NCBI RefSeq assembly: GCF_026130545.1
Contig: NZ_JAMOIM010000046.1
Span: 1-36,186 of the forward strand
Reading direction: 5' to 3'
Length of the DNA stretch: 36,186 nt
Source of the DNA: Lichenifustis flavocetrariae
Lineage (GTDB): Bacteria > Pseudomonadota > Alphaproteobacteria > Rhizobiales > Beijerinckiaceae
Position numbers and translations under genes: made by a program. Positions 2,051 to 36,186 of the stretch are shown in pieces. Each line of letters starts with the position of its first letter. Position 1 is the stretch's first letter. Under the pieces are notes generated by a model. That model did no database searches and was not told the DNA's origin. It saw only the letters and a list, made by a program, of their open reading frames with translations.

Positions 2051-2193
2051 TATTTTTGTCTGCGCTTTTGCTTGGGTGAGAGGCTTCCAGATACGTTTTT
2101 GTCGGCTATGTGTCGGTCCATCCTTGCATTTTTTTGCGCCAGAGCCTCGGTAATATTGCAACGCCAGTTGCTCTCCAGGAAAGTGCAACGATC

Positions 2194-4524
2194 ATGACTG
2201 CGGTGTTCGCCCATTCGGTACCGCATCTCCCGCAGACATGCTGGGAGACTCTGGCCGAGCATGCGGTAGCCGTGGCTGAAAGTAGTGAGATGCGAGCCAG
2301 TCCAATCGGTGTCGCGCCCCTAGCGCGCGCTGCCGGCATGTTGCATGACATCGGGAAATGTTCGACCGCGTTTCGGACCTACATCGAGAGCGACACCGGA
2401 CAAGGCCCGGACCACTCGACTGCAGGTGCGGTCGAGGCGCTGCGCCTCTATCCAGGCCCGATCGGACGCATGCTAGCCTTTGTGATCGCGGGCCACCATG
2501 CCGGGCTCGCGGATGGGCCGGATCTCGGAATCCGGCTTGAAAAGAATCTGCCGACCTATGCGGGCTGGGAAGCCGAAGTGGGTCCGCTGCCGCCGGCAGG
2601 GGTTTGCGGCGCGCGCCTGCGCGGATCGAGCCCGCACCGCGGCTTCTCGCTCGCCTTCCTCATCCGCATGCTGTTCTCGTGCCTCGTCGACGCCGATTTC
2701 GTCGAGACGGAGAGGTTCTACGCGAAGGTGGCCGGGCAGCACGTCGAGCGCGAAGGCTTCACGCCGCTTCCCGTGCTCCACGAGCGGCTGCAGCGCTTCA
2801 TGGCCGCCATGCGGGCGAGCGCCGAGGCGACCGCGGTCAACACCCTTCGTGCCACCATCCTCGACCACGCTATCGGCAAGGCCCCGCTTGCCCCCGGCCT
2901 TTTCACCCTTACGGTCCCGACCGGAGGCGGCAAGACCCTAGTATCGCTTTCCTTCGCACTGGAGCATGCGCGCCGCCACGAGCTACGGCGCGTCATCTAC
3001 GTCATCCCGTTTACATCGGTGATCGAGCAGGTCGCGAGCGTTTTCCGCAGCGCTCTCGCGCTCGAACCGGGCGGGGAGAACCAGGACGACATCCTCGAGC
3101 ACCATGCGAACTTCGACTGGGAGGCAGCGACCCGCCTCGCCGTCGAAGACGGTCGTGGCAGCGACCCGGCCGACCGGCTGCGCCGCGGCGCCGAGAACTG
3201 GGAGGCGCCCGTCGTCGTGACCACAGCCGTGCAGTTCTTCGAGAGCCTCTTCGCCAACCGAACGAGCCGCTGCCGCAAGCTGCATAACCTCGCGAAAAGC
3301 GTCATCGTGCTCGACGAGGCCCAGACCCTGCCGCTGCCCCTGCTGCGCCCCTGCCTGGCGGCTCTCGATGAACTCCAGCGCAATTACGGGGCAAGCGTGG
3401 TCCTCTGCACCGCGACCCAACCAGCCCTGCGGGTGCAGGACGGGTTCGACAAAGCCAAGCCAGGCCACGTCTCCAGCGCGCTAAACATCCCGTCAGACCG
3501 AGAACTCGCGCCCGATCCGGAAGGCCTTGCGGCGCGCCTGAAGCGCGTTGCGATCGAGCGGCTCGAACAACCGATCACCGACGCCGAAATCGCAGCCCGC
3601 TTCGCGGCGCAGGTGCAGATGCTCTGCATCGTCAATTCACGCGGTCACGCCCAGGCGCTGTTCGGCGCCATCCGCGAGCTACCGGGGGCCATGCACCTAT
3701 CCACCCTCATGTGCCCGGCCCATCGCCGCATCGTGCTAGCCGAGGCACGGCGGCGCCTTAAGGCCGGAGCGCCCGTCCGCATCGTCTCGACCTCGCTTAT
3801 CGAGGCAGGCGTCGACATCGATCTGCCGGAGGTCTGGCGTGCCGCGGCCGGCCTCGATTCAATCGCGCAGGCGGCCGGGCGCTGCAACCGCGAGGGCAAG
3901 CGCAAAGAGCTCGGGCGCGTGGTGGTGTTCGAACCGGCCGAAGCGGTCCTGTCGCCGGAGTTCGAACACGCTTGGCAGGCGGCCCGCGCCGTTCTCCGCG
4001 GGAGCGGCGACCCGCTCGCCCCTGCCGCCATACGGTCCTATTTCGGCGAGGTCTATTGGCAAAAAGGGCCCGAGGCGCTCGACGCCGCCCGCCTCGAGGG
4101 CGAGACCTATCCGATCCTGCAAAAGATCGCCGAGCGCGCACCGCAAAATGGAGAGAAGGACCCGCTGCTCGCCTTTCCCTTCGCCTCCATCGGGCAGGCG
4201 TTTCGCGTGATCGAGGAGGTGATGGAGCCGGTGATCGTCCCCTGGCGGGCCGCGCCGGGCGATGACACGTGCGAAACCATCCTGCGGCGCGTCGCAGCCA
4301 TGGACAAGCCGCTTGGCCCGGACCTGCGGAGGCTGCAACGCTATGTCGTCGCCATCCCGCGCAAGGTCCGGTCAGAATGGCTGGCCCTCGGCGTGCTTCG
4401 GCCGGTCCATCCGGCGCTCGGCGACGCGCTGCTCCGTTTCGAGGGATTGGAACACTACGACGAGGACACCGGCGTTCGCCTGAGGGCGCCGCTGGAGCGG
4501 GGGGTTTGGAGCAACGTCTTGTAA
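2194..4524 (+). CDS. cas3: CRISPR-associated helicase/nuclease Cas3, type I-C
   Basis: Cas3 unwinds and degrades the target strand after Cascade forms an R-loop. The 776-aa protein has an N-terminal HD nuclease domain and a C-terminal superfamily 2 helicase. HD residues seen are LHDIGK (about 50-55), DH (about 73-74) and GHH (about 100-102). Helicase motifs are PTGGGKT (242-248), DEAQ (374-377), and the late STSLIEAGVDID and QAAGRCNREG motifs. I chose the ATG at 2194 because AGGAAAG lies about 10 bp upstream and the protein then begins MTAVFAHS, as family members do. The open frame extends back to 2110 with a GTG. The gene is intact and same-strand with the other cas genes, but a 322-bp gap separates it from cas5c, which is unusual for type I-C operons. 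Confidence 0.96.
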   Translation: MTAVFAHSVPHLPQTCWETLAEHAVAVAESSEMRASPIGVAPLARAAGMLHDIGKCSTAFRTYIESDTGQGPDHSTAGAVEALRLYPGPIGRMLAFVIAGHHAGLADGPDLGIRLEKNLPTYAGWEAEVGPLPPAGVCGARLRGSSPHRGFSLAFLIRMLFSCLVDADFVETERFYAKVAGQHVEREGFTPLPVLHERLQRFMAAMRASAEATAVNTLRATILDHAIGKAPLAPGLFTLTVPTGGGKTLVSLSFALEHARRHELRRVIYVIPFTSVIEQVASVFRSALALEPGGENQDDILEHHANFDWEAATRLAVEDGRGSDPADRLRRGAENWEAPVVVTTAVQFFESLFANRTSRCRKLHNLAKSVIVLDEAQTLPLPLLRPCLAALDELQRNYGASVVLCTATQPALRVQDGFDKAKPGHVSSALNIPSDRELAPDPEGLAARLKRVAIERLEQPITDAEIAARFAAQVQMLCIVNSRGHAQALFGAIRELPGAMHLSTLMCPAHRRIVLAEARRRLKAGAPVRIVSTSLIEAGVDIDLPEVWRAAAGLDSIAQAAGRCNREGKRKELGRVVVFEPAEAVLSPEFEHAWQAARAVLRGSGDPLAPAAIRSYFGEVYWQKGPEALDAARLEGETYPILQKIAERAPQNGEKDPLLAFPFASIGQAFRVIEEVMEPVIVPWRAAPGDDTCETILRRVAAMDKPLGPDLRRLQRYVVAIPRKVRSEWLALGVLRPVHPALGDALLRFEGLEHYDEDTGVRLRAPLERGVWSNVL

Positions 4525-4547
4525 ATTCACTGCATCGTTACTTTGAG
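4519..4547 (+). promoter_or_regulatory. Candidate guide target and possible promoter
   Basis: TTC at 4526-4528, the usual type I-C PAM, is followed at 4529 by ACTGCATCGTTAC. This matches the bases directly after the orphan CRISPR repeat (4722 onward) at 11 of the first 13 positions. The same stretch could hold a weak sigma-70-type promoter, with TTGTAA at 4519-4524 and TTTGAG at 4542-4547, 17 bp apart, so a bound Cascade would cover it. GTTACTTTG (4537-4545) is shared in inverted form with the cas3 upstream dyad. The matches are seen; the function is inferred. Confidence 0.45.
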
Positions 4548-4612
4548 CCTAGATGCGACAGCGTTCACAGGAAGCCTTTGCCGCTCCAGATTGGCATCGT
4601 GGAGGAACTGCG

Positions 4613-4738
4613 ATGTCACGACGCCTGCCAAGGATTACCGTTACGGTCGATGCCGATGGAAAGGTGGTTTTGATCATTGAACCCATAATAGGTCGCTTCT
4701 CAATTGGGCGCGGATCGAAACACTGCAGCGTTGCGTGA
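4613..4738 (+). CDS. Small hypothetical ORF between cas3 and cas5c, 41 aa
   Basis: An ATG at 4613 follows a good ribosome site (TGGAGGA at 4600-4606). The predicted product is basic at the start and has a beta-prone core, ITVTVDADGKVVLIIEP. Its last 15 codons run through the orphan CRISPR repeat and into the guide-like bases. I do not recognise it. It may be a real small protein, a leader peptide whose translation affects the RNA below it, or a chance frame. The good ribosome site and protein-like core favour translation; the overlap with the repeat argues that at least the 3' end is constrained as RNA. Confidence 0.35.
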   Translation: MSRRLPRITVTVDADGKVVLIIEPIIGRFSIGRGSKHCSVA

Positions 4739-4755
4739 GGCTAGCCTGACAGGAG
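4692..4755 (+). ncRNA. Orphan CRISPR repeat plus guide: candidate Cas-regulating RNA
   Basis: Positions 4692-4721 are a degenerate copy of the array repeat. The first five bases (GTCGC) and the last sixteen (GGGCGCGGATCGAAAC) are identical to it, while the middle, which forms the stem, has diverged and is one base shorter. The following bases, from 4722, match a site 193 bp upstream (4529) at positions 1-6, 8-11, 13 and 15, and that site carries a 5' TTC. A strong hairpin at 4753-4785 follows and no second repeat is seen. Known Cas-regulating RNAs (CreR) and CreA antitoxins have this design: a lone repeat with a short seed match to a cas or toxin promoter. The weakened stem could impair Cas5c processing. 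A leftover repeat from an old array is the main alternative. Confidence 0.55.
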
Positions 4756-4785
4756 TACCCCTGATTCCAATCATCCGGGGTACTC
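4753..4785 (+). terminator. Strong hairpin between orphan repeat and cas5c
   Basis: GAGTACCCCTGATT (4753-4766) pairs with AATCA (4769-4773) and GGGGTACTC (4777-4785), leaving a TCC bulge and a two-base loop, 14 base pairs in all. It begins about 30 nt after the orphan repeat, where a guide RNA would end. No U-run follows, so it may be a terminator, a 3' stabiliser for the small RNA, or a leader structure of cas5c. Confidence 0.55.
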
Positions 4786-4876
4786 TCTTCCGGTGATCAA
4801 GTTCTCCTGTGTGTAACTCTATTGAACTGCTTCGATTTTGTAGTCTTTGAATAGAGTATTCCTGGGAGGGCTTTGC

Positions 4877-5551
4877 ATGAGCTATGGCATCCGCCTGCGG
4901 GTCTGGGGCGAGCGCGCCTGTTTTACGCGCCCGGAGATGAAAGTTGAAAGGGTCTCATATGACATGATGACCCCCTCGGCCGCCCGGGGCATCCTCGAAG
5001 CCATCCTGTGGAAGCCGCAGATGCGCTGGGTGGTGGACCGCATCCACGTGCTCAACCCAATTCGCTTCCAGTCCTTTCGTCGCAACGAGGTCGGGGCGAA
5101 GGCTTCGGCCACGATGGCCGAGCGCGCCATGCGGGCCGGCACGACCGCGGGGCTCGGCCTCGTCGTGGAGGACAACCGCCAACAGCGTGCCACGACGATG
5201 CTGGTCGACGTAGACTACGTGATCGAGGCGCATTTTGCGCTGACCGACAAGGCCGGGCCGGCCGACAGCGCCGCCAAATACATCAGCATCTTCAATCGCC
5301 GCGCCGAAACCGGCCAATGCTTCCACCGGCCCTGCCTCGGCACGCGCGAGTTCACGGCGGATTTCGCGATACTGGCGCCCGAGGCCGCGCTGCCGCCCTC
5401 GCGGCTGCCGGCGGACCAGCGCGGCCGTGACTTCGGCTGGATGCTGCACGACATCGCCTGGCCCGAGCGCACCTCCCGCTTCTTTCACGCCCGCCTCGAC
5501 GACGGCGTGCTCGACGTGCAGCGCTGCCTCGCGGAAGGCACGGTCGCATGA
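4877..5551 (+). CDS. cas5c: Type I-C Cascade subunit and crRNA endonuclease Cas5c
   Basis: In type I-C, which lacks Cas6, Cas5c cleaves pre-crRNA at the repeat stem base and stays bound to the 5' handle. The 224-aa protein begins MSYGIRLRVWGERACFTRPE and carries the family blocks RVSYDMMTPSAARGILEAI and NPIRFQSFRRNE. I chose the ATG at 4877 because GGGAGGG lies just upstream and homologues start with this short beta strand; the frame extends ten codons further to a TTG at 4847. The stop overlaps the cas8c ATG by four bases (ATGA), so the two are translationally coupled. It is the first gene of the effector operon. Confidence 0.95.
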   Translation: MSYGIRLRVWGERACFTRPEMKVERVSYDMMTPSAARGILEAILWKPQMRWVVDRIHVLNPIRFQSFRRNEVGAKASATMAERAMRAGTTAGLGLVVEDNRQQRATTMLVDVDYVIEAHFALTDKAGPADSAAKYISIFNRRAETGQCFHRPCLGTREFTADFAILAPEAALPPSRLPADQRGRDFGWMLHDIAWPERTSRFFHARLDDGVLDVQRCLAEGTVA

Positions 5552-7371
5552 CCATTCTCCAGTCGCTCGACGGCTATTATGGGCGCATGGCGGCGCGCGG
5601 CGAGGCCGAGCGGCCCGGCTTCTCGCGCGAGAAGATCAGCTTCGTAGTCGTGCTCTCGGGGGACGGCACGCCGCTCGACGTGCTCGACATTCGCGCGCCC
5701 AGCGGCAAGAAGCTGCAGCCGGTGCTGCGCGAAGTGCCGGCCGCCGTGAAGCGAGCTTCCAATATCCTGGCGAACCGCTTTTGGGACAAGACCGCATACG
5801 TTCTTGGTCGCACCGCCGGACCCGATCATCGCACTTCGCGAGAGCACGCCGCTTTCAAGGCGCTCCATCGCGACCTTCTCGCAGGCGCCACCGACGAGGG
5901 TCTTGTGGCGCTGCTGCGGTTCCTTGGGCAGTGGCAGCCCTCCGCTTTCGATGCGGCCCCCTTCCGTTCTGAGATGCTTGACGCCAATATCGTGTTCCGG
6001 CTTGAAGGCGAGCCCGGCTTCGTCCACGAGCGCGAGGCGGCCCGCACCCTTCTCGCGGCAGCCGACACCACGAGCAGGGCGGAGGGCGAGATCTGCCTCG
6101 TCACGGGCACGCGCGGCGCCGTCCAGCGCCTGCATCCGAGCATCAAGGGTGTCCAGGGCGCGCAAAGCTCCGGGGCAGCGCTCGTGTCCTTCAACCGCGA
6201 CGCCTTCACGTCCCTCGGCAAGGAGCAGGGTGCGAATGCGCCGACCTCGGAAACGGCCGCCTTTCAGTATGGCGCTGCACTGAACCGCATGCTCGACCGC
6301 AGCAGCCGCAACCGCCTGTCCCGGCCCATCGGCGACGCCACGGTCGCGTTCTGGGCCGACACGTCGGCGACCGTGAGCGAGGAAGCGGCAGTCGCGGCCG
6401 AAGCCCTGTTCTTTGAAATCGTCGAACCGCAGCCGACCGACGACGATGCCCAGGAAACCGCAAAACTCGGCGACGCTCTCTCCAAGGTCGCGGCCGGCCG
6501 GCCGCAAGAGGCCCGACCGGCCCTGCGGCCGGGCACGCGCTTCCACGTGCTCGGCCTGTCGCCGAATGCCGCGCGCCTGTCGGTCCGTTATTGGCTCGAC
6601 GACACGTTCGAGGCCTTCGCGCAGCGGCTGCTCGACCATCAACGGGACTTGTGCCTCGAGCCGCCACCAAAGGGCTGGGGCCGCAAGACGCCGTCGGTCA
6701 GCCGCCTGCTCGCCAAGACCATGGCCCTGCAGGAGAAGTTCGATAACATCCCGCCACTGCTCGCCGGCGAGGTGATGCGCGCCGTGCTCGGCGGTACTCG
6801 CTATCCGCGCACCTGGCTCGGGGCCGCCCTGATCCGCCTGCGGGCCGGCGACGACCCGTCCACCGGCTGGCACGCGGCCGCGATCCGCGCCGTGCTTGAA
6901 CGCGACCGGCGCCGCAGCCCCGATGCCGAACGCACCCAGGAGATTCCCGTGAGCCTCGCCAAGGACTTCGATGACCCCGCCTACCAGCTCGGCCGGCTCT
7001 TCGCCGCGCTCGAGACCGCGCAGCGCCTCGCGCTCGGCCGCGTCAACGCGACGATCCGCGACCGCTACTTCGGCGCCGCCTCGGCGACGCCCGCCATCGT
7101 CTTCCCACTGCTGCTGCGCGGCGTGCAGAACCACATCGGCAAGCTGCGCAAGGACCATAAGGACGGGTGGATCGAGCGCGAGATCGGCGAGATCGTCGAC
7201 CGCCTGCCAGCTGCGCTGCCGCGCAGCCTGAAGCTCGAGGCGCAGGGGCGCTTCGCCATCGGCTTCTATCACCAGCGGCAGGCGCAGTTCGCCAAGCGGC
7301 CGGACGTCGCCGCGACGCTCGATACTCAGGACATCGAGCCCGAGGAAGGGGAAACGAATGACAACGTCTGA
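5548..7371 (+). CDS. cas8c: Type I-C Cascade large subunit Cas8c (Csd1)
   Basis: Cas8c recognises the PAM and starts R-loop formation. The 607-aa length is typical. Family features seen include [12 protein letters not shown] near residue 30, [15 protein letters not shown] near residue 70, GEICLVTG near residue 185, and the helical C-terminal part with [12 protein letters not shown] and [11 protein letters not shown]. The last third also encodes Cas11c from an internal start (separate entry). The ATG overlaps the cas5c stop, and the 3' end overlaps cas7c by 14 bp. A long open frame on the opposite strand is a GC-rich shadow. Confidence 0.93.
6949..7371 (+). CDS. cas11c: Internally translated small subunit Cas11c
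   Basis: Type I-C systems make their small subunit from an internal start within cas8c; it lines the Cascade belly and stabilises the R-loop. An in-frame GTG at 6949 has an ideal ribosome site, AGGAG at 6938-6942, six bases upstream. The predicted 140-aa product starts [20 protein letters not shown]. This agrees with described Cas11c proteins, which begin just before the GRLFA...LE block. The frame and stop are those of cas8c. Standard gene callers miss such genes. The site is seen directly; use of it is inferred from the family. Confidence 0.8.
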
Positions 7372-8305
7372 GACAAGCGGCGTCACGCGGCGTCACGAGT
7401 TCGTCTTGTTCTTCGACGTCAGCAACGGCAACCCGAACGGCGACCCAGACGCAGGCAACCTGCCACGGCTCGATCCCGAGACAAACCAGGGGCTCGTCTC
7501 CGATGTCGCGCTCAAGCGCAAGATCCGCAACTACGTGGCGCTGGCCCGCCCCGACGCAAAGGGCCATGAAATCTACATGCGCGAGGGCGCGACCCTCAAC
7601 CTCGAACACAAACGCGGCTGGACGGCCGTGATGCCCGAGGTGACGAAGCCCGAGGAGATGAAGCGGCTGCCCAAAGAGGAGGCGAAGGCGCGCGAGCTGA
7701 CGCGCTGGATGTGCGCCAATTTTTGGGACATCCGCACCTTTGGGGCCGTGATGACCACGGGCGTCAACGCGGGCCAGGTGCGCGGCCCCGTGCAACTCGC
7801 CTTCGGCCGCTCGGTCGAGCCTGTGCTGCCGCTGGAAATCTCCATCACGCGCATGGCGGCCACCACGGAGGCCGACGCCGAGGCCAAGGGTGGTCGCACA
7901 ATGGGGCGCAAGCACATCGTGCCCTACGGTCTTTATCGCGCCCACGGCTTCGTCTCCGCGCCGCTTGCCTCGCATCCGACCAAGGGCACGGGCTTCTCCG
8001 ACGCTGATTTGGCGCTGCTGTTCGAGGCGCTGACAGCCATGTTCGACCACGACCGTTCGGCGGCGCGGGGCGAGATGGCCACGCGCGCGCTCGTGGTGTT
8101 CAGGCACACGACCGCGCTGGGCAATGCGGCGGCGCAGGATCTCTTCAAGCGCGTCGATGTCCACCGGGCCCATCAGGGCCGGCAGCATCCGATCGGGGCC
8201 ACGGAAACGGACAACTGGCCGCCGGCGCGCAGTTTCGATGACTATGTCGTGCGGCTCGACGGCGCCCCCTTGCGGCAGCTCGTCACCACCATCGACGTGG
8301 GCTGA
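7358..8305 (+). CDS. cas7c: Type I-C Cascade backbone subunit Cas7c (Csd2)
   Basis: Cas7c forms the helical backbone along the crRNA spacer. The 315-aa protein has the diagnostic start block [20 protein letters not shown] (about residues 19-38), followed by [16 protein letters not shown] and the thumb-region block [14 protein letters not shown]. The [20 protein letters not shown] block follows at about residues 145-165. The ATG at 7358 has GAGGAAGGGG upstream and overlaps the end of cas8c by 14 bp. The stop is one base before the cas4 ATG. The gene is intact. Confidence 0.96.
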
Positions 8306-8306
8306 T

Positions 8307-9980
8307 ATGGCATCGGCGGTTCTCGAGCCCGCCGCCGAGGACGCCCTCATCCCGCTCTAGGCGCTGCAGCACCACCTGTTCTGCCCGCGGCAATGCGCGC
8401 TGATCCACATCGAGCAGCTCTGGGCTGAGGATGCGGCGACCGCGGAAGGGCGGGTACTGCACGAGACGGTGGATGCTGGCGGGCGCGAGAGTCGGCCGGC
8501 CGTGACTTTGGCGCGGGGCCTCGCGCTCCGCTCGCTTGCTCTCGGCGTCACGGGCAAGGCCGATGCGGTGGAGTTCCGCGGAAAGCCGCCGCGGCCCTTT
8601 CCGGTCGAGTACAAGCGGGGCAAGCCCAAGGCGCATCGGGCCGACGAGGTTCAGCTCTGCGCTCAGGCGATCTGCCTTGAAGAAATGTTCGGCACAGCGG
8701 TTCCGGAGGGGGCGCTGTTTTACGGCGAGCCGCGCCGGCGCACCGCTGTGATCTTCGACGCGGCGTTGCGAGCGTTGACGGCCGACGTCGCGGTCGCTAC
8801 CCGGGCCACCCTGGCGAGCCGCACCACCCCGTCGCCGAAGCGCATGCCCGCCTGCCGCCGCTGCTCGCTTGAAACCCTCTGCCAGCCAGCCCGGTTAGAA
8901 AAGCCGCCGGCCGTGGCTCGCTGGCCAGGTGGAGAGCTGATGCGCCGGTTGCGCAACACCGTCTATGTCACCAGCGAGGGCGCCTGGCTGCGCAAGGACG
9001 GTGCCAATCTGGTGGTCGAGGTGGAGGGCGCCGAGCGCGGCCGCGTGCCGCTGCACATGCTGGAGGGCGTCGTCACCTTTGGGCGTCCCGGGGCCTCGCC
9101 GGCCCTGATGGTGGCCTGCGCCGAGAACGGCATCGCCCTGTCGTTCCTCGACCCGAATGGCCGCTTCCTGGCGCGCGTGGAAGGGCCTCGCACCGGCAAC
9201 GTGCTGCTGCGCCGCGCCCAGTTTGCAGCGGCGGGCGATTCAGCGCGCAGCGCTGTGATCGTGCGCGGCATCGTGGCTGCCAAGGCCGCGAACCAGCGGA
9301 CCGTATTGCGCCGGGCCATGCGCGACCATTCCGACAGCCTGCAGCCGGACGCCCTGGCGATGCTCGCGGCCGCCGAGGCCCGCCTCACAGACATCATACG
9401 CCGGACCTTGAAGGTGACCGACGTCGATGGCCTACGCGGTATCGAGGGCGAGGCTGCCGCCACCTACTTCGCCGTCTTTCCCGTTCTGATCCGCCTCGAC
9501 GATCTCGCGTTTCGCTTCGGCGGGCGCTCACGCCGGCCGCCGCTCGACCGGATCAACGCGCTGCTCTCCTTCCTCTATGCCATGCTCGGCCACGACTGCC
9601 GCGCGGCGCTCGAATCCCACGGTCTCGACCCTCAAGTCGGGTTCCTGCATGCCGACAAGCCAGGACGTGCGAGCCTCGCGCTCGACCTCATGGAAGAACT
9701 GCGACCCGTTCTGGCCGACCGGCTTGCGCTCAGCCTGGTCAATCGCCGTCAGCTCGCGGCCGACGATTTCGTGATGGAGGTAACCGGTGGCGTCCGCCTG
9801 ACCGACGAGGCGCGCGGCCGGGTCCTTGTGGCCTGGCAGGAGCGCAAGCGCGACGAGTTGCGTCACCCGTTTCTCGACGAGGCGATGCCCTTCGGCCTTG
9901 TGGCCCATGCGCAGGCCCAGATGCTCGCCCGCCACCTTCGCGGCGACCTCGACGGCTATCCCGCCTTCGTCTGGAAATGA
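8307..9980 (+). pseudogene. cas4-cas1: Cas4-Cas1 fused reading frame with amber codon 18
   Basis: Cas4 trims prespacers and checks the PAM; Cas1 integrates them. One frame encodes both. Codon 18 (8358-8360) is TAG, where homologues have Ser in LIPLSALQHxxFCPRQC, so TCG to TAG by one base is likely. Beyond it, the Cas4 domain keeps FCPRQC, the nuclease block PVEYKRGK...QLCAQA, and the C-terminal cysteines CRRCSLETLC. There is no stop before Cas1. If translation restarts at the ATG at 8469, Cas4 loses its first 54 residues, including the first iron-sulfur cysteine. The Cas1 part is intact (separate entry). I-C loci usually keep cas4 and cas1 separate; fusions are typical of type I-G. The nonsense codon could be real, a sequencing error or read through. 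Confidence 0.85.
8940..9980 (+). CDS. cas1: CRISPR integrase Cas1, likely internal start
   Basis: The Cas1 part can be translated alone from an ATG at 8940, giving 346 aa, the usual length for this subtype. It starts MRRLRNTVYVTSEGAWLRKD, as free-standing I-C Cas1 proteins do, and AGGTGGAGAG lies just upstream. A TGA in another frame overlaps the ATG, as at ordinary cas4/cas1 junctions, so the fusion may result from a small indel in the cas4 tail. Metal-binding residues of Cas1 are in place: Glu in RGIEGEAAATYF, His in GFLHADKPGRASLALDLMEE, and the Asp/Glu cluster after it. This probably leaves Cas1 functional despite the cas4 amber codon. Confidence 0.85.
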   Translation: MRRLRNTVYVTSEGAWLRKDGANLVVEVEGAERGRVPLHMLEGVVTFGRPGASPALMVACAENGIALSFLDPNGRFLARVEGPRTGNVLLRRAQFAAAGDSARSAVIVRGIVAAKAANQRTVLRRAMRDHSDSLQPDALAMLAAAEARLTDIIRRTLKVTDVDGLRGIEGEAAATYFAVFPVLIRLDDLAFRFGGRSRRPPLDRINALLSFLYAMLGHDCRAALESHGLDPQVGFLHADKPGRASLALDLMEELRPVLADRLALSLVNRRQLAADDFVMEVTGGVRLTDEARGRVLVAWQERKRDELRHPFLDEAMPFGLVAHAQAQMLARHLRGDLDGYPAFVWK

Positions 9981-9983
9981 CCC

Positions 9984-10274
9984 TTGCTGATGCTTGTCGC
10001 CTATGACGTGAACACCGAAAGCCCGACCTGCCGGACGCGTCTACGCCGCGTTGCCCGCGCCTGCCTCGACTTCGGCCAGCGCGTGCAAAATTCCGTTTTC
10101 GAATGCGAAGTGGGGCCGGCGCAATGGACGGCTTTGCGGGCGCGGCTCATCGGCCTTATCGACCCGGATCGAGACAGCCTCCGCTTCTATCGCCTCGGCG
10201 CCGATGGCCGCCGCCGCGTCGAGCATGTCGGCGCAAAACCATCCCTAAACCTCGACGGACCGCTTGTCTTTTAG
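9984..10274 (+). CDS. cas2: CRISPR adaptation protein Cas2
   Basis: Cas2 is the dimeric core of the Cas1-Cas2 integrase. The 96-aa product has the ferredoxin-like first strand MLVAYDVNTE with its conserved Asp, then RLRRVARACLDFGQRVQNSVFECE and DSLRFYRLG. The start is either the TTG at 9984 or, more in line with homologues, the ATG at 9990. It starts directly after the cas1 stop. It is the last cas gene; the leader and the array follow. Confidence 0.95.
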   Translation: MLMLVAYDVNTESPTCRTRLRRVARACLDFGQRVQNSVFECEVGPAQWTALRARLIGLIDPDRDSLRFYRLGADGRRRVEHVGAKPSLNLDGPLVF

Positions 10275-10455
10275 CTCCGCGCGAACCACAAGCGCCCATG
10301 CAGTCCGTCGATGCTTCGCGAAACCCTTAAATGTCTCGTCTCGTTTAGCAATTCGTGGGCAGACTTAAATATTTCTGCCAAGAGACGGTATGGGGCGCCG
10401 TGTTCGCGCAATGAAAGTAGAATTCGTCGGGCAATCAATCTGATATACCCACCCG
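10275..10455 (+). promoter_or_regulatory. CRISPR leader
   Basis: The 181 bp between the cas2 stop and the first repeat are more AT-rich than the flanking genes and hold no credible ORF. By position and by repeat orientation (repeats end in GAAAC), this is the leader, carrying the array promoter and the signals for spacer integration. I could not pick a convincing -35/-10 pair by eye. Confidence 0.7.
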
Positions 10456-10744
10456 GTCGCCCCTTCACGGGGGCGCGGATCGAAACAGCACCTCCCGTGC
10501 CGTGACGGTCGAGGTCGGCTGGTCGCCCCTTCACGGGGGCGCGGATCGAAACATCTACGCCGACAGCAATGTGGATGAGACAGCGTGTCGCCCCTTCACG
10601 GGGCGCGGATCGAAACTCATGCACATCGGCAAGCTGCTTGCGCAGCGTCGTCGCCCCTTCACGGGGGCGCGGATCGAAACGTGAGTGCCGTTGCTCGGCG
10701 CCCTTGCTCGGATGTCGCCCCTTCATGGGGGCGCGGATCGAAAC
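10456..10744 (+). CRISPR. Type I-C CRISPR array, 5 repeats and 4 spacers
   Basis: Repeats lie at 10456-10486, 10522-10552, 10587-10616, 10650-10680 and 10714-10744. The consensus is 31 bp, starts GTCGCCCCTTCAC and ends GGATCGAAAC. It has a CGCCCC/GGGGCG stem as expected for Cas5c processing. Repeat 3 lacks one G in the stem (30 bp). Repeat 5 has a C to T change in the loop, as terminal repeats often do. The spacers are 35, 34, 33 and 33 bp. The array runs in the cas direction and ends 168 bp before the stop of the convergent relaxase gene. I saw no spacer match within the window. It is short for a system with a full effector set. Confidence 0.98.
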
Positions 10745-10912
10745 AATCTGTCGAGCGAGAAATGGAACGAGCGGCTCACCAAGCCGAAACTCAACGCACA
10801 CATCTCAAAGCCCAACGGCAACTTCAATGCCAATCCGGGCCCGACGGTTTTATCTTAGTCGGCACAGCTCCTCCCTTCTTCTCTTCCGCGGCAGGCGACT
10901 GAGAGCAATACT

Positions 10913-13900
10913 TCAATCGATCCCGCGACCACCTCTCCCTGCGCTGAACTCCGTCACCACCCTGCCGAGCTCATGCCAATTGGCATGCCTGGCTGTTGCA
11001 AGCGCTTGACGCCACACATTGTTGATGTCGGCGCCCGCCACGGATCGAGGCCGGCGATGATTGAACTGGCGTTGGCATGAGTTATGAGCCTCCTTCCACA
11101 AGCGGCTACCATCGACTTCGGCGAGCCTGCACAGGGGCTTTGCAACGTCGTGCCATGGAAAGTTTTTAGCGATCAGAACGAGGGCGACGTCGGCAACAAG
11201 GCGCAAGCGTGCGGTATGATCCAGGCTCTCGGCTTGGTTCCCGGCATCCTCGCCGTTGATCGGCTCTGGATTTTGGCGCTCGCCTGACGGGCCCTCCTGC
11301 GCCGGTCGCTCACCGTCACCAGAACGTTCCGGATGGTCCTGACGCGGATTGCGCTCCTCTCGTAACACAGGCCCCGCAGTTGTCTGCGGCGCCACATCCT
11401 TTCCTTTGGCAACTAAGCGCAGTTCCGCCTTCAGCGATCGCAGGTCCGCCGATTTTTGCACGGCGGCGTTGTACAGGTCTGCTAGCTGTCGATTTGCTTC
11501 TCTCTTTTCCCGGTTGACGAGCGGGCGGATTACCGCAAGCTCGACCGTAAGGGACAAAATGCGAAGGATTAGGTCATGGCGGCCGACCCTCCGCACACGC
11601 CGGCGAACCTCAGCTAAAATCCGAAGCCGCGCGGTCCGCCGCTCAGTCACCTCTTCGGCGCGCAGGCGGCGCTCAAGCCAGAGGGCTTTAAGGTCTTGTT
11701 CGATCTGGCTCATCGCCTCGCGGCGAAGCCTGCGATACAACCTTGCTTCGGCCTTCGCTTCTGTCTGCCGCACTCGAATAACAAAATTGGGAATGCTCAG
11801 GAACCTCTTCGCTGCTTCCTCTGAGAAGGCATGACTGACCGTGACCGAAATCCGTTTCTTTCGATCGCGCGGGTCACCCGGAGCCGCGCAGGCGTCCAAC
11901 ACACGCTCGACTTCTGCCCTGTCATGCCCTGCGGCTCGAAGCCTGCATGCAACCGCGCGCTCAAGGCCGGCGTCTGTTTTCCAAGGCTTCCCTGTGCGTT
12001 GCGCGAGTAGTTCGAGATCCGACTTATGGGCCTCGAATCGAGCCTGTCGCAGGCTGAATTCAGTTTCGGGGTCGTCGGGCTGCATTGGCCGCGCGACATC
12101 GGGTTTCAGCACCCCTTGCGACTCGCTCACCGTGATGGCTCGCACCACACGGGGACCGCAAGTGGTGTCAGGCTGCTGACCCTCGCTGGGATGTCTGGTG
12201 TCACTCGCCGTACCGGCGCTGGGATCCACGTCTATCGCCCCGCCACTCTGAGCCGATTGTGCAACAACGTCGCCTTTGCGAATGCCAGGGTTACCCCGTT
12301 GCTGGGGATCCCGCTTCCGCCGCCGGTCGCGCCGAGCTTCGTTGTCCTCCATCTTCCACTTGTTATCGAGACTTCGCAGGGATGCCGACCAGTCAGCCGT
12401 TTGTTGCGATGTGCTCCTCTGGCGAACATTCGCCGTCGTCAGGACAGCTTCGAAAATCTCTACCTCAACTCCGACGATGGTGGCGACCTCGGCAATTCGC
12501 ACCTTAGACAAGCGGCGGCGGCGATCGAAAATCTGAGCCAGCGTGATCGCGTGCTCGACCTCTGGCGCAAACGTGGAGTGTTGACGACGACGATCGGTGT
12601 CGTGTTCCCGATCGGGCGGCACGAGAGTCTTTGAGGTCGCAGCGACACTTGACGTCCCAGGGATGGTTTTGGGCGCCGATTTTCGGCGATCGGTCGCGGT
12701 GTGAGTTGTTGGGAGCGACTCTGTTTCCGCTCTTTGTCGGGCCAGGACCTGTGCCAGGGCATCGATCTGTGACTGATTGAAGCCAAAGTCCGCTGCACCA
12801 GTTTCGACCTTCCCCGGGAGAAGGCCCAGGGCTTGCGCAAGCCCGTGAGCACGCTCGCCAACAGCCTGCAGAAAGGCCTCACGCCTGTGTTGGGCCACTG
12901 CGGGACTATGCCCGTGTTCAGAACTGCTATCGCCACCCGCTCGTTGAGTTCCGCCGCCTGATGCACACTCGAGCTCTTCGCTCGGAGAGCGGTCTCGCTG
13001 GTCGACAGATGGCAAACCGGTAAATCCATCGATAATTGTGCGGTTGCTTTCTGGCTCTGCCAAAACATCGTCAGATGGGACCGGCCGCACCGCGCGCTCG
13101 CCGAGTTCGTGCGCTCGCCGGGTCCGCCATGTTGCCGTTCCGCGGCGCCGTTCGAGCTCGATGTCTGCACGAGGCACATTGCTGACGGGCCGGATCGCGA
13201 GCCCGCGTCGGGCGAAGCTTCGATGATCGACCTCGTGATCGCCGCTCATTTCACGGTTCAGCTGAGCCCACTCCGCCCGCATCCACTCGCATGTCGGGCC
13301 GATTTGCCGACCGCCAACGTCGATGCCGTTTCCGTCAGCTTTTTTTGAAACGGCATCGAGTTTCCGTTGTTTCTTGCCGATGCGGCCGTTCACAACCGTT
13401 CGCGTGCCCAGCCAGATGTGCACATGGTCAGGCCGACCATCTACGATATGAACGCGGCCTTCGGCCGTTACCTGCAACTGATCTGACAATCTCGTCACAA
13501 AGTCGGTCAGCATCTTAGCCGACTGCTCGTGCGTAATCCCCCACCGCAAGGAGCCGATGCAGTGGACTGCAACCCGCGGCAAGCGTCCTCCATAGCGCCG
13601 GTATGAGCGATCTGGCTTCCGCTCCCTTGCGTCCAACGCCCTTGCCATCTGTGCGCCGGTCTCGACATCCAGGCCTCTCTTGCAGAGCACATGGGCCCCG
13701 AGGTCCGCTTCAGCCTTCTTTCGGCCGCTACGATTCAAATACTCGGAAAGCCTCTCGGCGTCAGCAGGACCGAGGTGCGATGACAGCAAGGCGTGGGTCG
13801 CCATGGAAAGGTCACGGGTCTCGATTGCGCCGCCATTGATATAATTCGCGACCGCGAGGGACGTTATTCGCCCGGGATCGCAGCCGATCCAGGTTAAATT

Positions 13901-13993
13901 GAAATGGAAAAAGCCGGTTCGGCTTCGCGCTGCACCGGATGGTCCGCCCTGCGGATCAGCCGGTGGTGAAGCGACCCGCGCAGCCGTTCTCAC
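10913..13993 (-). CDS. mobA: MOBQ-type (MobA/MobL) relaxase
   Basis: Relaxases nick oriT and pilot the strand in conjugation. The 1026-aa protein has the MobA/MobL N-terminal fold: GFFHFNLTWIGCDPGRITSL with a likely catalytic tyrosine in ANYINGG (about residue 51), the three-histidine metal motif HIVDGRPDHVHI (about 182-193), and DHRSFARRGL (about 256-265). A long variable region follows, then a helical, charged C-terminal part (about 690-900) rich in Arg, Lys and Glu. The start is a GTG at 13993, the only start codon before the conserved fold; it adds about 26 residues. The frame is intact. It converges on the CRISPR array. Family membership is secure; plasmid versus integrated element cannot be told here. 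Confidence 0.82.
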   Translation of the reverse strand: MRTAARVASPPADPQGGPSGAARSRTGFFHFNLTWIGCDPGRITSLAVANYINGGAIETRDLSMATHALLSSHLGPADAERLSEYLNRSGRKKAEADLGAHVLCKRGLDVETGAQMARALDARERKPDRSYRRYGGRLPRVAVHCIGSLRWGITHEQSAKMLTDFVTRLSDQLQVTAEGRVHIVDGRPDHVHIWLGTRTVVNGRIGKKQRKLDAVSKKADGNGIDVGGRQIGPTCEWMRAEWAQLNREMSGDHEVDHRSFARRGLAIRPVSNVPRADIELERRRGTATWRTRRAHELGERAVRPVPSDDVLAEPESNRTIIDGFTGLPSVDQRDRSPSEELECASGGGTQRAGGDSSSEHGHSPAVAQHRREAFLQAVGERAHGLAQALGLLPGKVETGAADFGFNQSQIDALAQVLARQRAETESLPTTHTATDRRKSAPKTIPGTSSVAATSKTLVPPDREHDTDRRRQHSTFAPEVEHAITLAQIFDRRRRLSKVRIAEVATIVGVEVEIFEAVLTTANVRQRSTSQQTADWSASLRSLDNKWKMEDNEARRDRRRKRDPQQRGNPGIRKGDVVAQSAQSGGAIDVDPSAGTASDTRHPSEGQQPDTTCGPRVVRAITVSESQGVLKPDVARPMQPDDPETEFSLRQARFEAHKSDLELLAQRTGKPWKTDAGLERAVACRLRAAGHDRAEVERVLDACAAPGDPRDRKKRISVTVSHAFSEEAAKRFLSIPNFVIRVRQTEAKAEARLYRRLRREAMSQIEQDLKALWLERRLRAEEVTERRTARLRILAEVRRRVRRVGRHDLILRILSLTVELAVIRPLVNREKREANRQLADLYNAAVQKSADLRSLKAELRLVAKGKDVAPQTTAGPVLREERNPRQDHPERSGDGERPAQEGPSGERQNPEPINGEDAGNQAESLDHTARLRLVADVALVLIAKNFPWHDVAKPLCRLAEVDGSRLWKEAHNSCQRQFNHRRPRSVAGADINNVWRQALATARHANWHELGRVVTEFSAGRGGRGID

Positions 13994-16395: not shown

Positions 16396-17805
16396 ATGAA
16401 CGCTGCAGTCATTTACGCGGACGCCACCGAACTAGCGGCGCTGATCCGCACCCGGCAGATCTCACCAGTCGAGGTCATGAAAGCGCATCTCGACCGCATC
16501 GAAGCTGTCGACCCCAAGGTCAACGCGATCGTCACTTTGGCAGGCGGCGCGATGGAAGCCGCGGCAAAGGCCGAGGCAGCGGTTCTGGCAGGTGAACCAC
16601 TTGGCCCGCTGCACGGAGTGCCCTTCACGGCAAAGGATTCGATCGACACCGCCGGGGTCGCGACCCAGCGGGGTTCGCCGATCTTCAAGGGGCGCATGCC
16701 CGGCACAGACGCCACCAGCGTCGCGCGCCTGAAGGGCGCCGGGGCGATCCTGCTCGCCAAGACGAACCTGCCGGAATTCTCCTACTGGATCGAAAGCGAC
16801 AACCTGCTCTCCGGTCGAACGAACAACCCGTGGAACCTGGAGCGCACGCCGGGCGGGTCGAGCGGCGGCGAATCCGCCGCGATCGCGGCAGGCATGTCGC
16901 CACTCGGCCTCGGCACCGATCTTGCGATCTCGTTGCGCGGGCCGGCGGCCCAGACGGGCATCACCTCGCTCAAGGCAAAGCATGGCCGCGTGCCGATGAC
17001 GGGCATCTGGCCGCGGGCCCCGCGTCGCTTCTGGCATGTCGGTCCGATGGCGCGAAGCGTCCGCGACCTCGCGCTCGCCTATTCCATCCTGGCCGGGCCG
17101 GACGGGATGGATGCCTTCGCGACCAGCACCGTCCTCTACGATGCCGGTGTCGGTCCTTCCCTCGATCGGCCGCTGCGCGTGGGATGGCTCGTGGAGCCTG
17201 GCTTCGGGCCAATCGATCCCAAGGTTGCTGCGATTGTTCAGGCGGCGGCCGAGGCGCTCATGAGCGCGGGTTGCGCCGTGGAGCCGGTCCGCATTCCGGC
17301 GCTCGAGCAGGATCTCGCGCTCGACGTGTTCAATCGCCTTCACGTGATGGAGATGCAGCCTGCCTTTGCAGAGGCAACGGCCGGTCGCCGCGATGACGAG
17401 CTCTACATGATGGCCAAGACCATGCTGGCCTTACCCGACACGTCTATGAAGGACTATGTCGACGCCGAGCAGGCGGCCGAGCGGCTGAGGGACGGTTTCG
17501 CCGACTATTTCCAGCGCTACGACGCGCTGCTCACCCCCGTTCAGCCGATCCCGGCCCAGAAGCATGGCGTCTCGGCCTTCGTCATCCACGGCCAGACGGT
17601 GGATGCCACCTATCTGCAAGGCTCGACGGTTCCCCTCAACGTGACCGGTTTGCCTGGCCTGACGATCAGGTTCGGCACCAGCGGTGACGGCATGCCGATC
17701 GGCGTGCAGCTTGTCTCCAGCTGGCAGGCTGAATCGACGCTTTTGCACCTCGCCTCTCTGCTGGAGGCGGCGAGCCCCGTGCGCGACCTACACCCGAACC
17801 TCTAG
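16396..17805 (+). CDS. Amidase signature-family hydrolase, first copy
   Basis: Amidase-signature enzymes hydrolyse C-N bonds of amides with a Ser-cisSer-Lys triad. The 469-aa protein has the lysine in TAKDSIDTAG (about residue 78), the Gly/Ser signature TPGGSSGGESAAIAAGMSP (about 152-170) with the cis-serine, and the nucleophile segment GTDLAISLRGPAA. In most family members that segment reads D-T-G-G-S; here it reads D-L-A-I-S, keeping the serine. There is no signal peptide, so it is cytoplasmic. The ATG at 16396 is close to an AGGCAGG site. It is the first of two tandem paralogues. The natural substrate cannot be told; Glu-tRNA amidotransferase is unlikely given the position and variant motif. 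Confidence 0.88.
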   Translation: MNAAVIYADATELAALIRTRQISPVEVMKAHLDRIEAVDPKVNAIVTLAGGAMEAAAKAEAAVLAGEPLGPLHGVPFTAKDSIDTAGVATQRGSPIFKGRMPGTDATSVARLKGAGAILLAKTNLPEFSYWIESDNLLSGRTNNPWNLERTPGGSSGGESAAIAAGMSPLGLGTDLAISLRGPAAQTGITSLKAKHGRVPMTGIWPRAPRRFWHVGPMARSVRDLALAYSILAGPDGMDAFATSTVLYDAGVGPSLDRPLRVGWLVEPGFGPIDPKVAAIVQAAAEALMSAGCAVEPVRIPALEQDLALDVFNRLHVMEMQPAFAEATAGRRDDELYMMAKTMLALPDTSMKDYVDAEQAAERLRDGFADYFQRYDALLTPVQPIPAQKHGVSAFVIHGQTVDATYLQGSTVPLNVTGLPGLTIRFGTSGDGMPIGVQLVSSWQAESTLLHLASLLEAASPVRDLHPNL

Positions 17806-17912: not shown

Positions 17913-19334
17913 ATGACCGACGCAACACTCAGCCGAGCGGACCCAATTCATTATCAAGATGCGACGACGCTCGCGGCGCTGATCCGTAAGAAGGAGGTAT
18001 CATCCCGGGAGGTCGTGCAAGCACATCTCGACCGCATCGCCGCGGTGAACCCGAAGATCAATGCCGTCGTCACGCTTATGGCTGAGGATGCGCTGAGGGC
18101 AGCCGACGCGGCCGACAAAGCCGTCGCTCAAGGCGCCGTGCTCGGTCCCCTGCATGGCGTTCCCTTCTCGATCAAGGATGCCCTCGACACGGCGGGCGTG
18201 CCGACCCAGCGTGGCTCGAAGCTGTTCGCCGGCCGGATCCCGACCGCCGATGCCACCGCCGTTGCCCGCTTCAAGGCAGCGGGTGGCATCGCACTGATGA
18301 AGAGCAACCTGCCCGAGTTCTCGGCCTGGACGGAGACCGACAACCTCGTCACCGGTCGTACCAACAATCCATGGAACCTTGACCGCACGCCCGGTGGATC
18401 GTCGGGCGGCGAGTCCGCCGCGATCGCCGCCGGCATGTCGCCGATCGGCATCGGAAGCGACGTCGCGATCTCGGTGCGTGGTCCAGCCGCCTTCACCGGC
18501 ATCGCAGCCCTCAAGGCGACGCAGGGGCGCGTTCCTTTCACGGGCCACTATCCCGCGGTCACCAAGCGCTGGTGGCATGTCGGCGCGATGGCGCGCAGCG
18601 TCGGCGATGTGGCGCTGGGCTATTCGATCCTGAAGGGGCCCGACGGCATCGACGGTTACGCGGTCCATCCTCGTGAAGCGGACGCCGGGGCCGATCACAT
18701 TCCCGGCCGGCTTCGCATCGGCTGGGTCGCGGAGGCCGCCTTCGGCCCTGTCGATCCCGAGATCGCCGCCGCCGTTGCCTCGGCCGCCGCCCGCCTTGCC
18801 GATCTTGGCCACGACGTCGAGCCCGTGGACCTGCCGTTCCTCGGCAATCCACTCGGGGCGCTGATGACCCTCGTCTTCGGCGAGATCGTTCCTACGATCA
18901 AGGCTTTGGCTGCGGGTCGCGAAGGCGATCTCCACGCGATCGGGGCGGGGATCGTCGCCACGCCAGACCCGACCTTCGCCGCTTACTTGGAAGCCGAGGC
19001 GCAGGGCGAAGCGCTGCGGTCTGCCTTCGCCGGCTTCTTCGAGCGGTATGATGTGCTGCTGACGCCGGTCAACCCGATGACAGCCACGCCGCACGGGGCG
19101 CAGGAGCTTGTCGTCGACGGCAAGACGGTGCCGTGGACCCACGTCATGGCGGCGACGTCGCCCTTCAATCTGACCGGCCTACCGGCGCTTTCGGTGCCTT
19201 ACGCTTTCAGCTCGGAGCACCTACCCATCGGCATCCAGCTCGTCGGCAAGTGGCTGGACGAGGCGACGCTGCTGCGACTCGGCGCGATGCTCGATCGCAA
19301 AGGTGGCTTGGACGAACGCCGACCCGCATTGTGA
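17913..19334 (+). CDS. Amidase signature-family hydrolase, second copy
   Basis: The 473-aa paralogue of the preceding gene shares its layout and much of its sequence. Examples are NNPWNLDRTPGGSSGGES and GVPTQRGSKLFAGR. The triad lysine is in SIKDALDTAG, and the variant nucleophile segment reads GSDVAISVRGPAA. The ATG at 17913 lies 107 bp after the first amidase stop, with AGAGAGCACG upstream. Tandem duplication followed by divergence suggests two related amide substrates under one TetR regulator. No signal peptide is present. Confidence 0.88.
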   Translation: MTDATLSRADPIHYQDATTLAALIRKKEVSSREVVQAHLDRIAAVNPKINAVVTLMAEDALRAADAADKAVAQGAVLGPLHGVPFSIKDALDTAGVPTQRGSKLFAGRIPTADATAVARFKAAGGIALMKSNLPEFSAWTETDNLVTGRTNNPWNLDRTPGGSSGGESAAIAAGMSPIGIGSDVAISVRGPAAFTGIAALKATQGRVPFTGHYPAVTKRWWHVGAMARSVGDVALGYSILKGPDGIDGYAVHPREADAGADHIPGRLRIGWVAEAAFGPVDPEIAAAVASAAARLADLGHDVEPVDLPFLGNPLGALMTLVFGEIVPTIKALAAGREGDLHAIGAGIVATPDPTFAAYLEAEAQGEALRSAFAGFFERYDVLLTPVNPMTATPHGAQELVVDGKTVPWTHVMAATSPFNLTGLPALSVPYAFSSEHLPIGIQLVGKWLDEATLLRLGAMLDRKGGLDERRPAL

Positions 19335-35545: not shown

Positions 35546-35572
35546 CGATTGGGGCTTCTCAACACCATCCGT

Positions 35573-36186
35573 GCTCAGGCAGATGCGGCCGTCGTCGAGG
35601 AAGCGCGTGAAAGCCGGCCAGTGGTTCAGGCTGTAGTTGATGGCTTTGGCGGTTTCGCTTTTGGCCGAGAGAAGCGCCCGCTTGTCGCGCAGGAAGGTCT
35701 CCAACGCTGTGACGAGCGGCTTCGAGGAAGCCTGGCGCACCGCGACACGCTCAGCCGGCGTCTTACCGAGGATCGTCCGTTCGATGGCGAAAATCTCGTC
35801 GATGCGGCGCACCGCCTCGATGGCGATCGGCGCCTTGCTGAGTTTGGCGAGGTCGAAGAGCTTGCGGCGCCCATGGGACCAGCACGCCGCCTCGATGATC
35901 GGTCGCGGTTTCCATCCGGGCGCGTAGAGGTCGTTGTAACCCGCGAAGGCGTCCGCCTGCATGATGCCGCCATAGCCGGCGAGGTGTGCGCGCGGATGGT
36001 CACCGTGCCGGCTTCGGGACTAGTGGAAGATGGCGGCCGGCGGGTTGGTACCGCCGAACGGCCGGTCATCCCGGAGATAGGTCCAGAGCCGGCCGGTGAC
36101 GGTCTTGAGCTTCGCCAGCACCGGCACCGTCGTATCATCGGCATGGATGCGCTCGGCCGCCAGCACGTGCCGGCGCAACGCCTGGA
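35573..36186 (-). pseudogene. tnpC: IS66 transposase TnpC, middle piece with nonsense codon
   Basis: Reading in from the window edge, this piece has QALRRHVLAAERIHADDTTV (catalytic Asp region), TGRLWTYLRDDRPFGG, then GYGGIMQADAFAGYNDLY and ACWSHGRRKLFDL. It ends with NHWPAFTRFLDDGRICLS at the IS110 junction. An in-frame TAG (36020-36022 on the plus strand as CTA) falls in IFH-stop-SRSR, where homologues have Tyr or Phe. The copy is therefore doubly dead, by nonsense codon and by insertion. The N-terminal part lies outside the window. Confidence 0.88.

Follow-up and report, generated by a model that had tools for sequence, protein, structure and literature searches.

Introduction

In CreTA modules, a CRISPR-repressed toxin is combined with a guide-RNA antitoxin, CreA. 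For CreA of Halobacterium hubeiense, which depends on a TTC protospacer-adjacent motif (PAM), the passages of PMC8501985 that deal with the guide place its 6th and 12th bases outside the target pairing, and a change at any of positions 1–5 or 7–11 abolished repression. The degeneration of the repeat in CreTA is the subject of PMC9458426. Regulators of a second kind, termed CreR, are published for types I-B, I-E, and V-A (PMC13131331). The same review names CreTA and type I-C once each, and its passage on CreTA is not on type I-C. Within the literature that we covered, to which the first CreTA and CreR papers do not belong, no publication on CreTA or CreA in type I-C was found, which does not prove that such a module is unpublished.

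Here, we describe the region between cas3 and cas5c in a type I-C locus of the alphaproteobacterium Lichenifustis flavocetrariae. The window, i.e., the whole stretch of DNA analyzed, comprises 36,186 nt. We consider it rather probable that it carries a CreTA-like module of a type I-C locus, that is, a CRISPR-repressed toxin together with a guide-RNA antitoxin.

Results

Layout of the Type I-C Locus

The window contains a complete type I-C set, consisting of cas3, cas5c, cas8c, cas7c, a cas4–cas1 fusion, and cas2, followed by an array of five repeats (Table 1). No cas6 was found among the genes identified in the window. In type I-C systems, Cas5c is the crRNA-processing subunit. Directly past the array, a reading frame at 10913–13993 (−) matches MobA/MobL relaxases and, weakly and below the cut-off, the C-terminal part of RepB primases. 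Since a relaxase-type protein adjoins the array, the CRISPR locus may sit on a plasmid or mobile element. Elsewhere in the window, two amidase paralogues stand in tandem (16396–17805 and 17913–19334, both +; DNA partly 72–74% identical), and a match to an IS66-family transposase is found at 35105–35962 (−), close to the contig end.

Table 1. Features of the cas3–cas5c region and of the surrounding type I-C locus in the window.
Feature	Position	Strand	Basis
cas3 (type I-C)	2110..4524	+	PADLOC Cas3c, 7e-207
TTC, PAM of the target site	4526..4528	+	sequence
Target site, part facing guide positions 1–17	4529..4545	+	match at 1–6, 8–11, 13, 15
GGAGGA, likely ribosome-binding site of the mini-ORF	4601..4606	+	sequence; 6 nt before ATG
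Mini-ORF, 41 codons, creT candidate	4613..4738	+	ORF reading; start 84 nt from target edge
Orphan degenerate repeat (psi-R) GTCGCTTCTCAATTGGGCGCGGATCGAAAC; presumed 5' handle 4711–4721	4692..4721	+	comparison with array repeats
Spacer-like guide (psi-S), creA candidate, 31 nt	4722..4752	+	match to target site
Strong hairpin closing the guide gene, 12–13 pairs, no U-run	4752..4785	+	folding, z −3.7
Possible cas5c leader	4791..4876	+	4791–4849 alignable to part of the L035 spacer
cas5c	4877..5551	+	PADLOC Cas5c, 6.5e-69
cas8c	5548..7371	+	PADLOC
cas7c	7358..8305	+	PADLOC
cas4–cas1 fusion	8469..9980	+	PADLOC
cas2	9984..10274	+	PADLOC
CRISPR array, five repeats	10455..10745	+	sequence

An Orphan Repeat and Guide Match a TTC-Flanked Site in the Same Gap

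The region between cas3 and cas5c holds an ectopic degenerate repeat outside the array, in which the crRNA 5' handle is kept whole and the stem is degenerate. The initial annotation of this DNA had stated that the orphan repeat retains the last 16 bases of the array repeat, including the handle, and that its stem is weakened. Both statements hold: a common suffix of 16 bases is seen on direct reading, and the orphan stem amounts to −6.2 kcal/mol compared to −13.7 kcal/mol for the array repeat. In the 7.5-Mb genome, GGCGCGGATCGAAAC with zero mismatches occurs only at 4707–4721 and in the five array repeats. The letters also confirmed the proposed match of the guide to a site beside TTC (4526–4528) at positions 1–6, 8–11, 13, and 15; positions 19–20 match in addition, which gives 17 of 36 positions in total, ungapped. 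Seed pairing (1–5 and 7–11) thus covers nine of ten positions next to a TTC PAM, with a mismatch at position 7, and pairing at positions 13–17 covers two of five.

To score PAM-adjacent sites of a gap, matches at positions 1–5 and 7–11 were counted fully and those at 13–17 with half weight (maximum 12.5), which yields 10.0 for guide and site in the window. Shuffled guides reached this score at p = 0.0013 and p = 0.0006 in two runs. Random 24-mers from the window, drawn with 4400–4900 skipped, did so in 22 of 20,000 draws, or in 15 of 20,000 with TTC sites only. A single copy of the PAM-plus-seed pattern TTCACTGCNNCGTT exists in the genome, the one at 4526; as a reversed control pattern is equally frequent (also once), the placement is unusual, not the uniqueness. 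The earlier observation of an orphan repeat with a guide/site match is confirmed as real.

A 3' end in the form of a second repeat or a terminator could be expected in such a gene; the window has a strong hairpin without a U-run at 4752–4785, directly behind the 31-nt guide. This hairpin had been reported before and is real (z −3.7), with 12–13 pairs rather than the 14 initially counted. Terminator-like sites after the guide numbered zero, and no canonical terminator was found there. An Rfam search of 4400–4950 with E up to 1 and a tRNA scan of the window gave no match. Among the related loci described below, a strong hairpin (z −2.0 or lower) follows the guide in 23 of the 24 hits with enough sequence, L130 being the exception; two further hits were left out of this count, as their tails were too short.

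Guide and Site Change Together in Related Loci

Joint change of the guide and the TTC site in related type I-C loci had been named as a check on the initial reading. We collected cas5c loci (numbered L) from the best 80 of 97 relatives in genome contigs and from family, order, and class genomes (matches in 30 of 397, 35 of 397, and 14 of 385 genomes, respectively, with the window's own genome counted each time), complemented by five more stretches and by plasmids (5 of 46 records with a match). In total, 162 loci were obtained, of which 158 were distinct; 157 cas3–cas5c gaps were measurable, 76 of them with a length of 100 nt or more. Two of these 76 (L004 and L033) lie on one contig, and others may be related. 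A search of further families revealed no new locus.

Repeat-like candidates, 37 altogether, were found in 36 of the 76 gaps, and 40 gaps had none. A site in the same gap with a score of at least 9.5 was present for 26 of the 37 candidates (window included), compared to 12 of 1,295 mismatched pairs of guide and gap from different loci. At a score of at least 10, the numbers were 25 of 37 and 4 of 1,295, and at a score of at least 10.5, a cut-off that the window with its 10.0 does not reach, they were 23 of 37 and 0 of 1,295. Guide and site hence covary, and since the guide sequences differ between loci, a shared ancestral duplication is no explanation for the match. Some variants of the repeat pattern were added after sequences had been viewed; they brought in L152 and L153, the latter matched by eye first. 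Without L151–L153, 24 of 34 candidates have a site in their own gap. The 11 candidates without a site at the threshold include L047 and L132, both with plausible mini-ORFs.

Over the 26 hits, the scored positions match in 92–100% (1–5), 85–100% (7–11), and 58–92% (13–17) of the cases; as these positions entered the score, the hits are partly selected for matching there. The unscored positions match in 23% (position 6), 8% (position 12), 23% (position 18), and 15–38% (positions 19–24). Positions 6, 12, and 18 are free in I-C guides, as in published CreA. The PAM of the 26 matched sites, window included, is TTC in 24 and TTT in 2 cases, with four PAMs allowed. A mismatch somewhere in the seed also occurs in 9 of the 25 other hits, at position 7 in L148 and L123. 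Of the 25 other hits, 11 have TTGAC starting 0–9 nt past the PAM complement, which is a raw count with no chance control.

In the gaps from Firmicutes and Desulfobulbus (L080, L085, L087, L095, L096, L101, and L107), the orphan-repeat guides match a TTC or TTT site in the same gap; L095 and L101 have no listed mini-ORF, and in L080 and L087 the site adjoins a near-consensus promoter of the TTGACA...TATAAT type, as judged by eye. These orphan repeats may represent CreR-type regulators in type I-C. In L041, a unit about 100–180 nt before cas5c has an altered repeat handle, a mini-ORF broken by an in-frame stop, and no matching site that we could find, so that this copy seems decayed.

A Mini-ORF Lies between Target Site and Orphan Repeat

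The initial annotation did not mention a mini-ORF that is placed between the target site and the orphan repeat. Seen from the target, its ATG at 4613 is the nearest downstream start with a strong ribosome-binding site, and a second in-frame ATG lies upstream at 4553. The frame runs through the orphan repeat and stops at guide position 17, so that it includes 17 nt of the guide. Besides the window mini-ORF (4613–4738), those of L027, L028, and L032 continue across the orphan repeat and into the guide or beyond it, which means that the guide gene is also an open reading frame in these four cases. By its place and its ribosome-binding site, the window mini-ORF is a candidate for the toxin gene creT.

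The mini-ORF gave no Pfam, PADLOC, or NCBIfam match, so that no KilA-N domain is recognized. No consensus promoter was found over the target; a box beside it, TTTACA, is directed away from the mini-ORF. In 9 of 13 loci, the mini-ORF is on the PAM side of the site; in the other four (the window, L032, L040, and L123), the PAM side faces the opposite way. Two successive rare ATA codons are located at 4685–4690 (codons 25–26); ATA accounts for 7 of 6,321 codons in 16 window ORFs. Such a pair was also seen in L039, and the other five of seven aligned mini-ORFs lack it. Sequestration of a tRNA, as by the AUA pair of H. hubeiense, is a lead only, as the codons do not stand near the start.

Spacing is shared among relatives. 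In 13 of the 18 hits from alphaproteobacteria, a mini-ORF with a ribosome-binding site starts 60–96 nt from the edge of the target, compared to 2.8 expected from random anchors, the tested range of 50–110 nt having been chosen after the distances had been seen. The mini-ORFs of L034, L036, L039, L040, and L123 encode peptides of one family, each of them scoring above all of 1,000 shuffles with a model built from the others (leave-one-out). These peptides have 26–28 residues, a basic start, and an end of E-x-E-W-E-P-P or similar (FRIRIG...EVEWEPP). In L040 and L123, guide gene and mini-ORF are on the strand opposite to cas5c. The L032 mini-ORF is not clearly related to this family (138 of 1,000 shuffles as good). 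When seven mini-ORFs were aligned, the window and L032 included, the reading frame scored 676, a value attained by 0 of 500 residue shuffles; the two other forward frames scored 357 and 321, and the three antisense frames 444, 504, and 318.

Membership of the window mini-ORF in the family is unproven: a six-sequence HMM gave −2.7, with 1,869 of 2,000 shuffles at least as good, and pairwise alignments gave p values of 0.03–0.80. As the window peptide is not recognizably of the family, its case rests on position, ribosome-binding site, and layout. A search with a peptide HMM produced 13 matches at E 0.05 or better over 298 genomes of the bacterial family. Two were strong, from YIM 77505 (G036) and 65-9 (G059), and both lie in cas3–cas5c gaps; the remaining ones were the window, which had been part of the training set, and ten weak matches, mostly within longer frames.

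Other small frames were seen in further gaps. Upstream of the orphan repeat, L121, L136, L132, and L047 have mini-ORFs for short hydrophobic peptides, and two of the four (L121 and L136) show a clear guide/site match. The gaps of L016, L018, L022, L024, L131, and L170 contain a similar small ORF (83 codons in L018, 58 open in L024) that is GIY-YIG-like by eye only; for the L018 protein, Pfam and NCBIfam gave no match, and the matches in the PDB were insignificant. L024 has a guide on the minus strand that matches a TTC site beside TTGACA, upstream of the small ORF, at positions 1–11, as if this small gene were Cascade-repressed.

The Sequence before cas5c

The stretch between the hairpin and cas5c was compared with spacers of relatives. 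Positions 4791–4849 align with positions 8–68 of the 131-nt cas3–cas5c spacer of L035, a locus without the module whose Cas5c is 76% identical. Block shuffles gave p = 0.0002 for the tail and p = 0.0052 for the whole gap, and 1 of 300 in a separate run; L035 is the best among the loci compared, and the p values are uncorrected for that choice. None of 12 other relatives tested aligns clearly with 4791–4849, the nearest being L007 (p 0.054). This could hint at an insertion of the module between cas3 and an older cas5c leader; as the alignment is partial and the best of a set, the insertion idea is a hint and not a result.

Discussion

Repeat, guide, site, PAM, hairpin, and a mini-ORF with a ribosome-binding site can all be read in the window, and covariation of guide and site in the relatives. 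From this arrangement, we infer transcription, processing, binding, repression, and toxicity as follows. The orphan repeat and guide (creA) would give a crRNA-like RNA with a normal 5' handle and a hairpin 3' end, which Cas5c would process and Cascade would load. Pairing through the seed only at 4529–4545, beside TTC, would let Cascade bind without cutting, with an R-loop reaching to about 4562, and bound Cascade would block transcription through 4526–4562. The blocked transcript would hold the mini-ORF at 4613, the creT candidate, as well as creA itself. As long as Cascade is intact, the mini-ORF would stay off; upon loss or inhibition of Cascade, it would be switched on, and the cell would be harmed or arrested. 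The reading as a CreTA-like module is favored by the covariation of guide and site, by TTC in 24 of 26 sites, by the mini-ORF spacing (13 of 18, compared to 2.8), by the peptide family in five relatives, by the hairpin in 23 of 24 hits, and by the agreement in layout with published CreTA modules of types I-B, I-E, and I-F. Against it stand the mismatch at position 7, the pairing of two of five at 13–17, the lack of a consensus promoter, the weak repeat stem, the PAM side that faces away, and a window peptide not detectably related to the family.

Which unit is regulated bears directly on an alternative that we regard as unlikely, yet worth weighing, i.e., an autorepressor of the CreR type. Cascade would then repress a promoter feeding cas5c–cas8c–cas7 together with the guide gene, and the mini-ORF would be incidental or a leader peptide. 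CreR is published for other CRISPR types, and several I-C relatives resemble it: the target site of L023 lies 15–32 nt before cas5c, and no qualifying mini-ORF is found on the strand of cas5c in L152 and L153, both of which contain a site and a guide gene. From the end of the guide-gene hairpin it is about 20 nt to cas5c in L036 and L136, so that repression could reach cas5c there; in L040 and L123, the site has the mini-ORF unit on one side and cas5c on the other and could control both. In the window, however, 348 nt separate the site from cas5c, with the mini-ORF, the guide gene, and the hairpin in between; the L035 alignment hints at a cas5c leader that predates the module, and 13 of the 18 hits from alphaproteobacteria have a mini-ORF with comparable spacing to the site. 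The initial annotation had proposed a Cas-regulating guide RNA that would control the cas5c–cas2 operon and possibly its own transcription. The design it described, a crRNA-like guide to a partly matching PAM site, stands and is strengthened by the covariation. Control of cas5c–cas2 as the regulated unit is less supported, with the site 348 nt off and only 84 nt from a mini-ORF with a ribosome-binding site. Since read-through past the hairpin is possible, CreR-type control of the cas genes stays among the candidates for the window.

It is improbable that the element is a decaying relic, i.e., a former CreTA or CreR unit that has lost its function. The same weaknesses that count against a CreTA-like module (mismatch at 7, poor 13–17 pairing, weak repeat stem, no recognizable promoter) would fit such decay, and L041 illustrates that these units may decay. 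Yet the PAM, nine of ten seed positions, the whole handle, the ribosome-binding site, and a strong hairpin are all present in the window, and a seed mismatch is shared by 9 of the 25 other hits. Chance, in the form of a stray array repeat beside a fortuitous match of 10–12 bases, is hardly credible. A lone degenerate repeat near an array can arise by recombination, the orphan repeat being a possible product, and judged by the reversed control, a PAM-plus-seed pattern is expected about once per genome. Against this, p is about 0.001 for the window alone, and the same design recurs with other sequences in the same place in 25 other loci.

Beyond the CreTA-like module itself, a wider interpretation can be drawn up that we consider quite improbable as it stands. 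The cas3–cas5c gap of type I-C would be a cassette site at which the RNA-guided switch is kept and small toxins of unrelated types replace each other: the basic peptides of the form FRIRIG...EVEWEPP, hydrophobic ones, and perhaps others. As the window mini-ORF ends at guide position 17, toxin and antitoxin RNA would have nucleotides in common. Translation by ribosomes would then be in competition with processing by Cas5c and loading into Cascade, and escape from repression would also destroy the repressor RNA, which would make a bistable switch. The mechanism as such is already known; the more novel part lies in the peptide family and in toxins that seem to be exchanged at a single cassette site.

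If the reading as a CreTA-like module is true, type I-C Cascade would be guarded by RNA-guided toxin–antitoxin units like types I-B, I-E, and I-F, and deleting or inhibiting it could be costly to the host. Pairs of guide and site are not rare in type I-C, with 26 supported among the 76 gaps of at least 100 nt from 157 measured loci. With the comparative rule (positions 1–5, 7–11, and 13–17 paired; 6, 12, and 18 free; TTC; mini-ORF at 60–96 nt), such modules can be found in raw sequence.

Among the described systems, CrePA is similar in that Cascade with a crRNA-like RNA represses a protein toxin; according to the cited part of PMC12737573, CreP typically has a KilA-N domain, whereas Pfam, PADLOC, and NCBIfam gave no match for the window mini-ORF. 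CreR of types I-B, I-E, and V-A likewise relies on a crRNA-like RNA that is partly complementary to its target and represses within its own cas locus. As far as the cited passages go, it is directed at a cas promoter and generally has no toxin gene coupled to it, in contrast to the mini-ORF between site and guide gene in the window (PMC13131331, PMC12737573). The CreTA of Acinetobacter (type I-F) occupies the cas3–csy1 gap and, downstream of the target, contains a mini-ORF equipped with a ribosome-binding site, but it differs by two repeats, a CC PAM, a 33-bp mini-ORF that acts as RNA, and a divergent orientation (PMC10097628).

The CreTA of Citrobacter rodentium (type I-E) also lies between cas3 and the first Cascade gene, in the cas3–casA gap, with a short ORF that has a ribosome-binding site and a target beside a PAM (PMC12055562). 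Its target is in a promoter region; its guide gene is on the strand opposite to the ORF; and its toxin must be translated, with toxicity known from experiment, compared to a candidate toxin gene in the window (PMC12055562). The archaeal modules of Haloarcula hispanica and H. hubeiense belong to type I-B and are processed by Cas6, in contrast to type I-C here. In H. hubeiense, an RNA serves as the toxin; its mini-ORF has six codons, and rare codons stand near the start, compared to 41 codons with ATA at 25–26 in the window, and repression was lost upon changes at position 7, where the window guide has its seed mismatch (PMC8501985). In the passages of PMC8501985 on their layout, both archaeal modules resemble the window in the ectopic degenerate repeat, the seed pairing, the TTC, and the tandem order of toxin unit and guide gene, and the H. 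hispanica module shares with it the one-repeat form without a second repeat.
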